A DNA stretch of 64,000 nt from Blastocatellia bacterium (GTDB taxonomy: Bacteria > Acidobacteriota > Blastocatellia > Pyrinomonadales > Pyrinomonadaceae): contig JACCVY010000041.1 in NCBI GenBank assembly GCA_013697915.1, positions 1 to 64,000 on the forward strand, given 5' to 3'. Made by a program: the position numbers and the translations under genes. The first letter of the stretch is position 1; every line of letters begins with the position of its first letter. The notes beneath the pieces were generated by a model. The model worked only from the letters and a program-made list of their open reading frames with translations, was not told the DNA's origin and searched no databases. Positions 1 to 4,738 of the stretch are shown here, one piece after another.

Positions 1-364
1 CTGTTACACGCTGAAGTATCAACCGCCCGCGTTCATGTGGAAACAGCATCAAGATCCGGTTCTGGCCTTCAAAGAGGGGCTTTATGCTTTCCCATGCGCT
101 GTCTCTGAATCGCTTAGCCTTTTTAGGAATTTCATCCTCAAGAATCAACGGCGGGAGCATATGATCCTTTTCAAGAACGCGTGCTTCATTAGTTGAGAGG
201 CTTTGTAACAAGTCGCTAGCCTTGTGCCAAACCGGATTGGCCACGGGGCTATCGACATCAATGACGGCTACATCTGTGCCAGTAGGATCAACGTGAAGCA
301 CGCGCAGGACAACGCCATCGGTTGAATCACCTAAGACTTCAATCAGCATTCCCTGGCTAATCAT
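1..364 (-). CDS. tnsB: TnsB-like transposase, N-terminal part (truncated by window edge)
   Basis: The frame opens with ATG at 364 and stays open to the window edge (about 121 residues, beginning MISQGMLIEVLGDSTDGVVL). Its ATG overlaps the tnsA stop as ATGA, so the two are probably translationally coupled. TnsB is the DDE-family transposase that binds the transposon ends and joins the 3' ends to the target, working with the TnsA endonuclease. The identification rests mainly on position directly after tnsA. The visible part is the poorly conserved N-terminal region, and the catalytic core lies outside the window. It contains Trp-rich helical stretches such as NPVWHKASDLLQSL, but no diagnostic motif. 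Confidence 0.75.
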   Translation of the reverse strand, partial: MISQGMLIEVLGDSTDGVVLRVLHVDPTGTDVAVIDVDSPVANPVWHKASDLLQSLSTNEARVLEKDHMLPPLILEDEIPKKAKRFRDSAWESIKPLFEGQNRILMLFPHERGRLILQRVT

Positions 365-1203
365 CCGCAACGCCTCGCGGTTTGTTGAAGACTAGAGTAT
401 GCGCTCGAAATTACGAGGGGCCTGCACGGTTCGATGCGCTCGGTCATGTTAATCGGCCATACCTTGTTAGCGATCAGATGACGAGCGACGGCTAAACTAC
501 TGCCAGTGGTAAGAGCAAACTCAGCATCGCAGACGGCGGCGAGCTCACACAGTGGCAGCTCTTCATTAAGGACCAGCTGTGTAAGCCGCTCGGAGGTCTT
601 TAGAATTACCCGCTCCGTCAATGGGTAAAGGTCCACAATGCGGAAGTAGGGGCGAACCCACCTAACGTTGGCAACGAAATTCTTATCAACCTGACGATCT
701 GTTACGAGTCCCCAATCGAGGCTTCGAACCTTAAAGTAGCGACGTTCGATTTCCAACTTTTCGAGAGTTCGCGAATTTCCTAACGCATTCATGTACTTGA
801 TCGATCGTGCGAAGTAGCAGAATCCACCGGCTTGTCGAACGGTCAAAAACTGGTCTGTGGTCATTACGATAGGCTGACGCGTGCGTGGATCAGTGGGGGG
901 CACAACACCGCACTCACGCGCGAGCGCGATAGTCTCTTCCAGTGGGAGGAGTGGATACTGCTCTCGTATGTCCGTCACGAAAGGAAGGAAATCATGGACG
1001 TGAAAAATGTTTGCTTCGAGATCGCTAAACAGATGATGGACTCTCTGAGTCTTCATCCCTAATATTCGATGAACTCGGCCTCTCGATGGAAAATCTTGAA
1101 TGCGGAGCCAGGGTTTGTATTCAGCACCCCTTCCTTTCCCAAAACCTTTGGCGATTCGGTCGACAATACTTTTTTGGGTCCAAGTTATCCTTTGTCTACC
1201 CAT
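361..1203 (-). CDS. tnsA: TnsA endonuclease of a Tn7-like transposon
   Basis: TnsA cuts the 5' ends of a Tn7-type element so that it is excised by cut-and-paste together with TnsB. The 280-residue protein shows the family core: E63 in SDLEANIF, the DIREQYPLLPLEE stretch at 78-90, D117 in VMTTDQFL, K136 in SIKYMN, and RTLEKLEIERRYF near 145-157. E, D and K match the restriction-endonuclease-like catalytic triad of Tn7 TnsA, so the enzyme looks intact. I chose ATG 1203, preceded by GGTGGGACGG, because it gives the family's usual length and N-terminus. The same frame stays open upstream to 1344 through a terminator hairpin, but that extension looks like leader. The stop overlaps the tnsB start. 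Confidence 0.93.
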   Translation of the reverse strand: MGRQRITWTQKSIVDRIAKGFGKGRGAEYKPWLRIQDFPSRGRVHRILGMKTQRVHHLFSDLEANIFHVHDFLPFVTDIREQYPLLPLEETIALARECGVVPPTDPRTRQPIVMTTDQFLTVRQAGGFCYFARSIKYMNALGNSRTLEKLEIERRYFKVRSLDWGLVTDRQVDKNFVANVRWVRPYFRIVDLYPLTERVILKTSERLTQLVLNEELPLCELAAVCDAEFALTTGSSLAVARHLIANKVWPINMTERIEPCRPLVISSAYSSLQQTARRCG

Positions 1204-1254
1204 GAGTCCGTCCCACCTCTCATTGGCCAACGTCCCAAAGCGACGAGGCAATAG

Positions 1255-1309
1255 AAAAAGGACTCTTGTAGAGATCTTTTGGATGCGATCTCTACAAGAG
1301 CCCTTTTTT
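1255..1309 (-). terminator. Bidirectional intrinsic-terminator hairpin in the tnsA leader
   Basis: A 17-bp stem (1260..1276 with 1287..1303, one mismatch) surrounds a 10-nt loop. It is flanked by AAAAA on one side and TTTTTT on the other, so it can act in both directions. It sits only about 50 nt upstream of the tnsA start and downstream of the likely tnsA promoter. It could therefore attenuate tnsAB transcription or shield the operon from outside transcription. Confidence 0.8.
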
Positions 1310-1331
1310 GTTGACGCTCGGATTTGCGTAG

Positions 1332-1378
1332 CCTGTTTTAGCAAGAGAGCGCGAAAGCACGCGCGTCTCTTTTACAGG
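1332..1378. repeat. Nested inverted repeat in the tnsA leader
   Basis: An outer arm pair CCTGT/ACAGG encloses an inner stem AGAGAGCGCG (1344..1353) with CGCGCGTCTCT (1360..1370). The RNA would form a second hairpin upstream of the terminator-like stem, so it might be the alternative partner in an attenuator. It could also be a protein-binding site. Function is unknown. Confidence 0.5.
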
Positions 1379-1410
1379 TCGGCTCTAACTTACTTTCAAA
1401 ACTTCGGGAT

Positions 1411-1438
1411 ATTCTAAATCCCTATGAGTTTTTGTCAA
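1411..1438 (-). promoter_or_regulatory. Probable tnsAB promoter with shared upstream box
   Basis: On the minus strand, TTGACA (1438..1433) is followed after 16 nt by TAGAAT (1416..1411), close to sigma70 consensus. The -35 overlaps the stop codon of the preceding regulator gene. The sequence TTGACAAAAACTCAT here nearly repeats TTGACAAAAACTTAT in the regulator's own promoter (1761..1747), suggesting a common operator. The implied leader to tnsA is about 200 nt. Confidence 0.6.
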
Positions 1439-1695
1439 GACGAAAATCGCTTTGAGCCGTCTTCTGTTTTTTCTAACAAATATTGATAGGCCGGGGAGCT
1501 CGGTGTTCTATGGCCCTGTTCATAGCCAATATAAGTACCTAGCGGAATTTTCAATTCAATTGCGGCCATCCTTTGTGTAAAGGCGGCGATCCCGCTCTCT
1601 TTTGCGCGTCGTTGGCGCCACAACTTTAACCGTCGCGGAATATTTAGATTGATTTTTCTCCCGTTCCAACTCTTGTCCATGTGCGTGCTCGTCAT
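1435..1695 (-). CDS. Small helix-turn-helix (XRE/Cro-like) regulator
   Basis: This 86-residue basic protein has a C-terminal half reading LGTYIGYEQGHRTPSSPAYQ, the pattern of the recognition helix and following turn in Cro/CI-type DNA-binding proteins. It is likely a repressor or activator of the transposition genes just downstream. I chose ATG 1695 because AGAAGGGA precedes it; the frame is open further upstream to 1761, but that part overlaps the promoter. It has a strong promoter of its own and is divergent from the other small regulator at 1786. Family assignment is by pattern only. Confidence 0.6.
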   Translation of the reverse strand: MTSTHMDKSWNGRKINLNIPRRLKLWRQRRAKESGIAAFTQRMAAIELKIPLGTYIGYEQGHRTPSSPAYQYLLEKTEDGSKRFSS

Positions 1696-1731
1696 GAGAG
1701 TCCCTTCTCTGTCTGGAATAGTACACAAATA

Positions 1732-1761
1732 TATATATCCCATGCGATAAGTTTTTGTCAA
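1732..1761 (-). promoter_or_regulatory. Promoter of the XRE-like regulator
   Basis: TTGACA (1761..1756), an 18-nt spacer, then TATATA (1737..1732) on the minus strand, about 40 nt before the start codon. The first 15 bases match the box at the tnsA promoter except for one base, consistent with autoregulation and co-regulation. Confidence 0.65.
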
Positions 1762-1785
1762 CTGGCATCGAGGAGCAGCCGTTGA

Positions 1786-2043
1786 ATGTTTGTTTCTAAT
1801 TGGCTACAGTTCGTTTTTATGAATGGCTTCACAACAGCGGAAGTTGCAGCACGATTGGGGGTGGCACAGCCAACAGTGAAACTCTGGTGCCAACAAGGGC
1901 GCTTTCCAAGCGCAAGACTTCACTCAACACCTCGCGGCCCGATTTGGCTGATCCCGGAAGTGGATATAAAACACTTCATCCGGCCAAAGAGAGGTAGACC
2001 CGGGACCCTAAACAAGAAATCCAAGGTTGTAAAAGGTCCATAA
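1786..2043 (+). CDS. Excisionase/MerR-type helix-turn-helix protein
   Basis: The 85-residue protein contains a winged-helix pattern at about residues 14-65: FTTAEVAARLGVAQPTVKLW for the helix-turn-helix, then GPIWLIPEVDIKHFI for the wing and following helix. This is typical of small excisionase or MerR-like DNA-binding proteins (HTH_17 type). The C-terminus is Lys/Arg-rich. GAGGAG lies 10 nt before ATG 1786; an internal ATG at 1819 starts just before the domain and is the alternative. It is transcribed divergently from the XRE-like gene. Inside a Tn7-like end it is most likely a transposon-borne regulator; its target is unknown. Confidence 0.65.
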   Translation: MFVSNWLQFVFMNGFTTAEVAARLGVAQPTVKLWCQQGRFPSARLHSTPRGPIWLIPEVDIKHFIRPKRGRPGTLNKKSKVVKGP

Positions 2044-2093
2044 AAAGGGCAATAACATACTTGACTGACTGTAGGTAGCTTTAACGAGGTGAG

Positions 2094-2685
2094 TTATACT
2101 TTTGTTGCTTGTTCAGTGGCATCCGATCGTGCAGCTTTAGGCTGCAAAGCGGTTTGGCCGTAGGATGGAGGCTCTGAATCAGGTTTGCTGTTTTGTCCCC
2201 GAGCGCCCGCGGCGGTCTGGCCGGGTGTAAATCCAGATGGCGTCGACGAAGTGGGGCCGGAAGACCCGGTATCGGTTTGGGGAGGGACTGCGCCCCTCTC
2301 CCAAAGCAGCTTTCCGTTGGGTGACCTCGGAACGTTTCGGACGTTTGCGCGACGCCTTCTAGGGTTGCACGTGGCGCCCGGGTGCCCGCTATTTTAGAGT
2401 CAGCAGAATGTGCGTCGAGAGGCGCACCAGCTGCCCTGGACGAGGAGCCGCCTTCGGGTTGGCCGCTCTCAGGACTTTGGAGGCTTGGCGACCCTCCCTG
2501 CTGGCCTATTATTCCGATTGCTCTTCGTCTTCACCTGTAGATTCCTTGCGTTTCCGTTCGTCTTCTTTTCTAAGTGTCTGGCCTTTCAGTAGCAGCCGGA
2601 ATACACGTTGCCGGTGCGCTCTTTGTTCGGGCGTTAGTTCTCTCGTCGGTTCTTCCGGCTGTTCTTGCTCTTCTTCTGAGTCCAT
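2094..2685 (-). pseudogene. Probable degraded reading frame in the transposon end
   Basis: On the minus strand three consecutive open stretches in different frames look coding. The first, from ATG 2685 to TAA 2509, gives 58 charged residues (MDSEEEQEQPEEPTREL...). The second reads GQQGGSPSLQSPESGQPEGG and onward from about 2503. The third, in another frame, ends TALQPKAARSDATEQATKV at stop 2094. The last two are rich in S, P, G and Q. The pattern suggests one gene broken by frameshifts, or a small gene followed by unrelated debris. No family was recognised. The 58-residue ORF may itself be intact. Confidence 0.4.
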
Positions 2686-2769
2686 CTCACGCCAGCTTCA
2701 ATTAGGCTTGCATATATTCAACTTCTTGCATCATTAAGGTCGCCCTTAGTTGCTTCTAAGCTACCGGTG

Positions 2770-2851
2770 CTTGCGATCTGTCTTCGGGAACGACTTGATT
2801 GTTCAGGGTACAACTCGATTCTTTAGGGTGCGACTTAATTGCGCATTATCA
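2770..2851 (-). repeat. Array of ~20-bp direct repeats, probable TnsB binding sites
   Basis: Starting points 2791, 2811 and 2831 are exactly 20 bp apart and share CRACTYRATT (CGACTTGATT, CAACTCGATT, CGACTTAATT). Read inward on the minus strand, two copies are CACCCTAAAGAATCGAGTTG and TACCCTGAACAATCAAGTCG. A more diverged copy follows at 2790..2770. Short direct repeats of about this size at the tip are the hallmark of TnsB-bound Tn7-type ends. Confidence 0.75.
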
Positions 2852-2875
2852 CGCGCGAAATAGGACTGGCAGCTG
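2852..2875 (-). other. attTn7-type insertion site downstream of glmS
   Basis: These 24 bases separate the proposed transposon tip from the glmS stop codon. TnsD-type proteins recognise the conserved 3' end of glmS (encoding LAKSVTVE here) and direct insertion about 25 bp downstream without harming the gene. Spacing fits; the TnsD gene itself is outside the window. Confidence 0.7.
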
Positions 2876-4738
2876 CTACTCAACCGTAACTGACTTCGCC
2901 AGGTTCCTTGGCTGGTCCACGTCGCAGCCGCGGCGCACGGCGATGTGATAGGCAAGCAGTTGTAGCGGAATGATTGAAAGAATCGGACCCAGCAGATCGC
3001 TGGCCGGGGGAATGCTAATTACGTAATCAGACACAACAGAAGACATCGTGTCTCCTTCGGTCAGCACTGAAATCACAATACCTTCTCGCGCTTTAACCTC
3101 AACAATGTTTGAATGCGTCTTTTCATAACGCAGTTCCGACGAGCGGTTGCCGTCTTCGCGTGTGTTGATGAACATCACGGGTAGACGTTCGTCGATTAAC
3201 GCGTTTGGACCATGCTTCATCTCGCCAGCCGGATAGCCTTCCGCGTGAATGTAGGAAATCTCCTTCAGTTTCAGCGCGCCTTCCAAAGCCACAGGAAAGT
3301 TGATGCCGCGGCCTAGGTAAAGAAAATCCGTCACGCGGAAAAATTCTTTCGAGAGTTCTTCAATGTCGTCTGATTCGTTGAGCAGATGTTCAAGCTTGAC
3401 CGGCAACTCAGCCAGTTGCTGTGCATGATGCTTGGCTTCATCCTCCGAAAGAGTGCCGCGAACGTTACCAAGATAGAGCCCGAGCAAATAGAGCGCGACC
3501 ATCTGAGAGGTGAATGCCTTGGTGGAAGCGACTCCGATCTCCGGACCGGCGTGGGTGAGCACGGTGCCATCGGCCTCGCGCGTGATCATCGAGCCAAAGA
3601 CGTTGCAAATGGCCAGCACTTTACTACCTAGCTCTTTCGCTTCTCTTAGTGCGGCGATGGTGTCTGCGGTTTCGCCGGACTGAGAAATGACCAGCATCAG
3701 CGTGTTCTCGTCCATCACCGGATCGCGATAACGAAACTCGGATGCGTAATCAACTTCCACCGGAATGCGGGCCAACTGTTCAATCATGTACTTGCCCGCA
3801 AGTCCTGCATGCCAGGAAGTGCCGCAGGCGGCAATCTTAATCGAGGTAAACTTTTTGAAGTCAGCCTCGGTGATGTTTTTCATCTCGTCGAGAAAAACGC
3901 GGCCAGTGTCCAAAGAGATGCGGCCCTGCACAGTGTCTCGAACTGATCGCGGCTGCTCGTAAATTTCCTTGAGCATGAAATGTTTGAAGCCGCCTTTTTC
4001 CGCCATGATCGGATCCCAGGTAATCCGTTGGATCGCAGGCTGGACCGAATTGCCTTCAAAGTCAGTCACCCGGACGGCGTCCCGTGTGAGGATGGCAATT
4101 TCACCATCGCCGAGAAAGAAGACGTCGCGGGTGTGTTGCAGAATCGGCGGAATATCGGAAGCAACAAAAAATTCGCCGTCGCCCAAACCGATGACAACCG
4201 GCGGCCCCTGGCGCACGGCGATGATCGTGTCCGACTCGTCCGCATTGATAATTGACAGTGCGAAGATGCCTTTTAGATCCAGCATCGCGCGGCGAACCGC
4301 GTTTTCGAAGTTGTGATCCTCTTTCAGATACTCTTCGATCAGGTGGGCGATAATTTCGGTGTCGGTTTCAGTGACGAACTGGTGGTCTGTCTTGCGCAAA
4401 CGCTCTTTCAGTTGCAGATAGTTTTCAATAATGCCGTTGTGGACCACGACGACTCGGCCGGTGCAATCGCGATGCGGGTGCGCGTTTTCTTCGGTAGGCC
4501 GGCCGTGAGTGGCCCAGCGCGTATGACCGATGCCGTAGGTGCCATCGAGCGGACTCAGACGGATCGTCTCTTCGAGATTGCGTAGTTTGCCTTCAGCTCG
4601 GCGTATTTCGAGATCGTGGCCCTCATTGACAACCGCAATACCCGCCGAATCGTAGCCGCGATATTCCAGCTTGCGCAGGCCCTCAATGATCAAGGGCACA
4701 ACCTGCTTGTTTCCAACGTATCCAACAATTCCGCACAT
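2876..4738 (-). CDS. glmS: Glutamine--fructose-6-phosphate aminotransferase
   Basis: GlmS makes glucosamine-6-phosphate from fructose-6-phosphate and glutamine, the entry step to UDP-GlcNAc for peptidoglycan. The 620-residue protein has the N-terminal glutaminase domain with Cys2 (MCGIVGYVG) and HTRWATHG near residue 73. Two SIS sugar-isomerase domains follow (CGTSWHAG near 310, [10 protein letters not shown] near 355) and the conserved C-terminus LAKSVTVE. Length is normal. It is the last gene of yvcK-glmU-glmS, 88 nt after glmU, separated by a large inverted repeat. No glmS ribozyme was recognised upstream. Its 3' end is the target site of the Tn7-like element. Confidence 0.98.

Follow-up and report, generated by a model that had tools for sequence, protein, structure and literature searches.

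The window, by which we mean the whole 64,000-nucleotide stretch analyzed from a Blastocatellia bacterium, opens with 2.85 kb from the right-end side of a Tn7-like transposon that has inserted downstream of glmS. This attTn7 host gene (2876..4738, minus strand; Pfam SIS and GATase domains) reads toward tnsA, and on the minus strand it is followed in order by the transposon right end, an HTH_17 ORF in reversed orientation, an XRE-like ORF, a leader, tnsA, and tnsB. The right end (2780..2848, minus strand) consists of tandem 20-bp TnsB-like sites, 2 of them exact pattern matches (2802-2820 and 2822-2840) and 1 degenerate (2782-2800), and these repeats stop about 25 bp past the glmS stop codon, as attTn7 predicts. 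Two related elements, L026 and L027, likewise adjoin glmS. In the nearest relative (L081, G004; GlmS 98% identical), attTn7 is empty and a short ORF, named HicA-like by eye, stands directly after glmS.

The 280-codon tnsA gene (361..1203, minus strand) matches Pfam PF08722 with 57.5 bits and PF08721 with 44.5 bits, both above cut-off, and the methionine assigned as its start (M1) is invariant in alignment A1. Its stop is overlapped by the start of tnsB (2..370, minus strand), of which 123 codons are present since the window starts at the contig end, inside this gene, and the remaining operon lies outside the sequence, as would any tnsC, tnsD/tniQ, and left end. A Pfam search with the tnsB fragment returned no match, and by tblastn the fragment matches the ORF that follows tnsA in 6 relatives. 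A TnsA gene followed by tnsB, together with a right end of TnsB sites near glmS, identifies the element as a Tn7-like transposon. The single Mu-transposase C-domain match in the whole genome falls on a different small contig (L105, G000:C87, 4.2 kb), where positions 1027-3432 hold a Mu C-domain transposase with its own AAA-ATPase gene, a pair of the TniA/TniB or TnsB/TnsC type. At L106 (G000:C216, 6550-6630), 2 AATTAAGTT(G/C)TTCCC sites lie 54 bp apart past an ada-like gene; the pair resembles a Tn7-like end, and the contig stops there.

Two regulator-like ORFs separate the right end from the transposase genes. The HTH_17 ORF (1819-2043, plus strand, 74 codons; excisionase or MerR-like) is oriented opposite to the tns genes and lies between the right end and the XRE-like ORF; the approximately 700 bp between it and the right end (2050-2780) contain several G+C-rich plus-strand hairpins and a 109-codon ORF (2408-2737). 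The XRE-like ORF (1435..1695, minus strand, 86 codons) is preceded by the ribosome-binding site GAAGGGA. Its match to Pfam HTH_31 is sub-threshold (E 0.029, 15.1 bits against a cut-off of 27), its protein model is of low confidence (pLDDT 58) and too poor for a fold search, and no homologues of it were found among 195 genomes, nor any TnsA or XRE relatives in the genome_contigs and viral_contigs collections. We treat its XRE identity as a lead rather than a result. A 31-nt match between the end of this ORF and contig C190 was judged to be chance, involving ordinary chromosomal DNA.

The leader promoter and the terminator ahead of tnsA

The initial annotation had described a promoter, a hairpin, and an intrinsic terminator in series ahead of tnsA, and this observation is confirmed. 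The near-consensus promoter TTGACA-16-TAGAAT (1411..1438, minus strand; predicted start about 1404) scores 11/12, a value reached in 5 of 1,000 dinucleotide shuffles of 1204-1780 and by 3 sites in the entire 64 kb on both strands. Its −35 box and the stop codon of the XRE-like ORF share nucleotides, so that the leader starts directly at the end of the XRE-like gene. The same position carries a 15-bp motif, TTGACAAAAACTCAT (repeat D2; 1424..1438, minus strand), of which a second copy, TTGACAAAAACTTAT (1747..1761, minus strand), occupies the −35 region of the XRE-like gene, with TATATA following 18 nt on. The consensus of the 2 copies is TTGACAAAAACT(C/T)AT, and no such pair arose in 60 shuffles. 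Because the motif is common to both promoters, it suggests that one regulator may act at the leader and at the XRE-like gene alike. The XRE proteins of type I-F3 CASTs autoregulate and repress other promoters of their elements (PMC11406308, PMC12150760).

Downstream of the promoter, the upstream hairpin of the leader is found as claimed on the minus strand (1332..1378; CCUGU...ACAGG around AAGAGA-CGCGC), and the fold of the leader as a whole is far more stable than expected (z = −6.0; equally stable in 0 of 200 shuffles). The predicted intrinsic terminator follows (1254..1309, minus strand), with arms at 1255-1276 and 1287-1308 that are 95% complementary and enclose a 10-nt loop. It has the sequence layout of such a terminator, namely a stable G+C-containing hairpin (about −34 kcal/mol on its own), an immediate U-tract, and the tail TTTTTCTATTG. 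The terminator itself stands, and the 17-bp stem with flanking A and T runs first proposed for it is better described as a 22-bp inverted repeat, since these runs pair as well; their presence on both sides means that the terminator is predicted to be bidirectional. The palindrome occurs once in the genome, which rules out a mobile repeat.

The distance from the stem end to the ATG at 1203 measures 51 nt, in line with the roughly 50 nt first given. A promoter search of this stretch yielded a best score of 5/12, typical of shuffles and nothing promoter-like, so that tnsA transcripts probably must cross the terminator; a promoter within the hairpin was ruled out as well, the best score there also being 5/12. 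The probable ribosome-binding site of tnsA, GAGGTGG (1213..1219, minus strand), forms the best anti-SD duplex (−10.1 kcal/mol) and falls outside the hairpin. A leader peptide was considered and rejected: no stop codon interrupts the tnsA frame between the ATG and a TTG at 1344 (minus strand), on the far side of the terminator, but this TTG has no ribosome-binding site.

Terminators recur directly ahead of tnsA

We surveyed the regions upstream of 38 tnsA genes (12 in related genomes, 25 in plasmid records, and the window's own), using a uniform search for intrinsic terminators no more than 110 nt upstream, with 40 shuffled sets and 137 ORF starts as controls. A terminator preceded tnsA in 16 of 38 regions, against a mean of 1.2 and a maximum of 4 in the shuffled sets and 8 of the 137 control ORF starts. 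In 12 regions, a number that near-copies in the survey reduce when independent cases are counted, the U-tract began no more than 10 nt from the tnsA start codon; only 1 of the 137 control starts had a terminator so placed. These abutting terminators are found in classic Tn7 on R721, in Bacillota (L056, L061) and Acinetobacter (L071, L073) members, and in L026 and L027, attTn7 elements of the family and class to which the window belongs, in which glmS, the right end, the terminator, and the ATG follow one another with nothing else between. The 12 cases belong to 3 separate TnsA clades, and the window forms a further deep branch. Abutting terminators are absent from the surveyed CAST-like, cyanobacterial, and Azospirillum members, and many relatives have no terminator at tnsA at all, which means that the terminator is not essential.

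In the 11 abutting members computed, the probable ribosome-binding site falls within or beside the hairpin's 3′ arm, and predicted read-through RNA keeps most of it paired (accessibility 0.00 to 0.19). Other structures also occur ahead of tnsA. L022 has a perfect 46-nt palindrome lacking a U-tract (−74 to −29), directly ahead of the ribosome-binding site, and L029 has a perfect 38-nt palindrome at the same place. Terminator-like hairpins stand farther upstream in L060 and L064 (about −185 to −161) and in L065 (−113 to −89), elements on Pseudomonas and Tolypothrix plasmids whose layout is nearer to that of the window.

For the abutting arrangement, we put forward the following hypothesis from sequence comparison. 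The last TnsB site would supply the −35 box of a promoter, and the hairpin or its immediate flank the −10 box, so that the element's own RNA would start inside the hairpin, past its 5′ arm, and hence escape the terminator; transcripts entering from the host would be stopped there, and their ribosome-binding site would be hidden. Such promoters can be drawn in several abutting members, each with a weak score: 1% to 4% of shuffles do as well in 3 of the 12 members, and 12% to 59% in the remaining ones. How much accessibility the ribosome-binding site would gain also varies, from a clear predicted gain in some members to none in others. This kind of escape is inapplicable to the window, where nothing promoter-like lies past the terminator. 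Taken at its broadest, a terminator fused to the tnsA start could be a widespread self-restraint device from which the element's own RNA escapes, and which the window's element may have rebuilt with a separate XRE-linked promoter; we offer this generalization tentatively, and with more doubt than conviction.

Insulation, attenuation, and other explanations for the leader

For the window itself, we lean moderately toward the explanation that the leader is an insulator and brake rather than a switch. We infer that in vivo, polymerase arriving from glmS or from the XRE-like gene would halt at the 1254-1309 terminator, as would most of the polymerase begun at the promoter at 1438. The tnsAB mRNA would then be a small leak-through only, keeping transposase low wherever the element lands, and control of its level would rest with the promoter, where the XRE-like protein would probably act via the common motif, rather than with RNA antitermination. 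Consistent with such a role, 1254-1309 is the first strong minus-strand terminator past glmS in the window (2 earlier candidates are weak), terminators recur at this place in the survey, and the motif is common to both promoters. Of the same-genus glmS loci examined, only a minority have a candidate terminator within 400 nt, and only 1 or 2 have one near the stop codon, making read-through from glmS plausible. Several points weigh against insulation: the terminator sits 1.5 kb inside the element, past 2 regulator-like ORFs, which is not the tightest position for an insulator; many relatives do without a tnsA terminator; and the domain match of the XRE-like ORF is weak.

The hairpin could instead be the ordinary 3′ terminator of the XRE-like gene, standing ahead of tnsA by chance, with tnsA using an unrecognized promoter farther downstream. 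It does lie 126 bp past that gene on the same strand, and intergenic terminators are common. However, a near-consensus promoter intervenes between the gene and the terminator, the last 50 bp before tnsA contain no promoter-like site, and L026, L027, and Tn7 have tnsA terminators without such a gene. We consider this explanation unlikely.

Regulated attenuation, in which an RNA structure, ligand, or protein would let polymerase past the terminator on a signal and so free tnsAB, is the function that the serial arrangement of promoter, hairpin, and terminator first brought to mind. The attenuator-like arrangement holds, in that a dedicated promoter precedes a real terminator with nothing promoter-like between that terminator and tnsA; its switchability is not supported. 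The sole competing helix found, 6 bp between AGAGCC near 1386-1381 and GGCUCU at about 1303-1298 in the 5′ arm of the terminator, is predicted to form in the nascent prefix with a probability near 1, but once the 3′ arm has been made it falls some 29 kcal/mol short of displacing the terminator (the leader folds with −34.0 kcal/mol without the terminator hairpin versus −62.9 kcal/mol with it). An Rfam search of the leader gave no family above threshold, only a weaker match with 20.6 bits against the 80.4 needed, and close homologues, in which conservation might show, were found neither in 162 genomes of the class nor in 72,556 plasmids. Other Tn7-like elements that bear the terminator lack a leader of this kind. 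Antitermination control of the leader is thus unsupported, and we think it improbable. IMG/VR matches to a 16-mer of the terminator stem were set aside, chance matches being expected in so large a collection.

We give equally little credence to the proposal that the unit running from promoter to terminator (about 150 nt) encodes an independent small RNA acting, for example, on tns mRNA or on a host target. The unit has the full layout of one (promoter, structured body, and terminator), and a leader RNA derived from IS200 does act as a small RNA (PMC12594629); the sub-threshold Rfam score and the absence of homologues from the searched genomes and plasmids count against it just as they do against attenuation. 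Very improbable, finally, is a purely DNA-level role of the palindrome, in which it would serve as the operator of a regulator or as a cruciform instead of terminating transcription: the long perfect palindromes in L022 and L029 would fit such a role, but the window's palindrome has a U-tract on both strands, and terminators hold the same place in other elements.

Possible restraint of transposition in Tn7 and other mobile elements

Tn7 integrates just past glmS, an essential and active gene whose transcription runs toward the transposase genes, and classic Tn7 is reported to insert into the glmS terminator (Gay et al. 1986). How the element avoids activation by glmS matters in practice, not least for Tn7 vectors and CAST tools with such right ends, and a terminator at tnsA in many lineages would provide an answer. 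The tnsA terminators probably keep neighboring host genes from accidentally activating the transposon. The open-licence literature that we searched yielded no account of a tnsA terminator; older subscription papers on Tn7 lie outside it, and an earlier description is possible. The insulating logic is already known from IS200, and its breadth across Tn7-like elements is what we did not find described.

Type III toxin-antitoxin operons share the layout of the window, with a promoter, a structured RNA, and a leaky terminator ahead of an ORF; unlike them, the window has neither a repeat RNA nor a toxin. Type I-F3 CASTs resemble the window in encoding an autoregulating XRE-family protein (RtaC, RtbC, VpxR), but these regulators control an atypical crRNA array, and the surveyed CAST-like members have no terminator at tnsA. 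A palindrome at 97-107 bp in the right end of VchCAST was tested for its effect on integration orientation (PMC10201428).

In IS200, impinging transcripts are terminated at one stem-loop, and a second sequesters the ribosome-binding site (PMC3196728, PMC12594629). The likeness to the window is that incoming transcription would be stopped and transposase kept low, and here too a terminator lies between the element end and the transposase start, on the transposase strand. IS200 differs in having an unrelated transposase and 2 stem-loops, and in that antisense RNA and Hfq also act; nor does the window allow the IS200 type of escape by the element's own transcript, its only good promoter being upstream of the terminator.

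Close parallels lie among elements that use the site at glmS. Tn7 (the R721 copy, L055) uses, like the window's element, the site after this gene, and it too has a terminator-like hairpin, CAGTCCAGTTATGCTGTGAAAAAGCATACTGGACTTTTGTT, directly ahead of tnsA, between the right end and the gene. The initial annotation's statement that it knew of no such control described for Tn7 elements needs this caveat. The Tn7 hairpin abuts the ATG and covers the likely ribosome-binding site, whereas that of the window lies 51 nt upstream, leaves this site free, and, unlike Tn7's, follows a strong promoter. L026 and L027 share with the window the order of glmS, right end, terminator, and tnsA, but they have neither regulator genes nor a separate leader, and their possible promoter shares sequence with both the right end and the hairpin.
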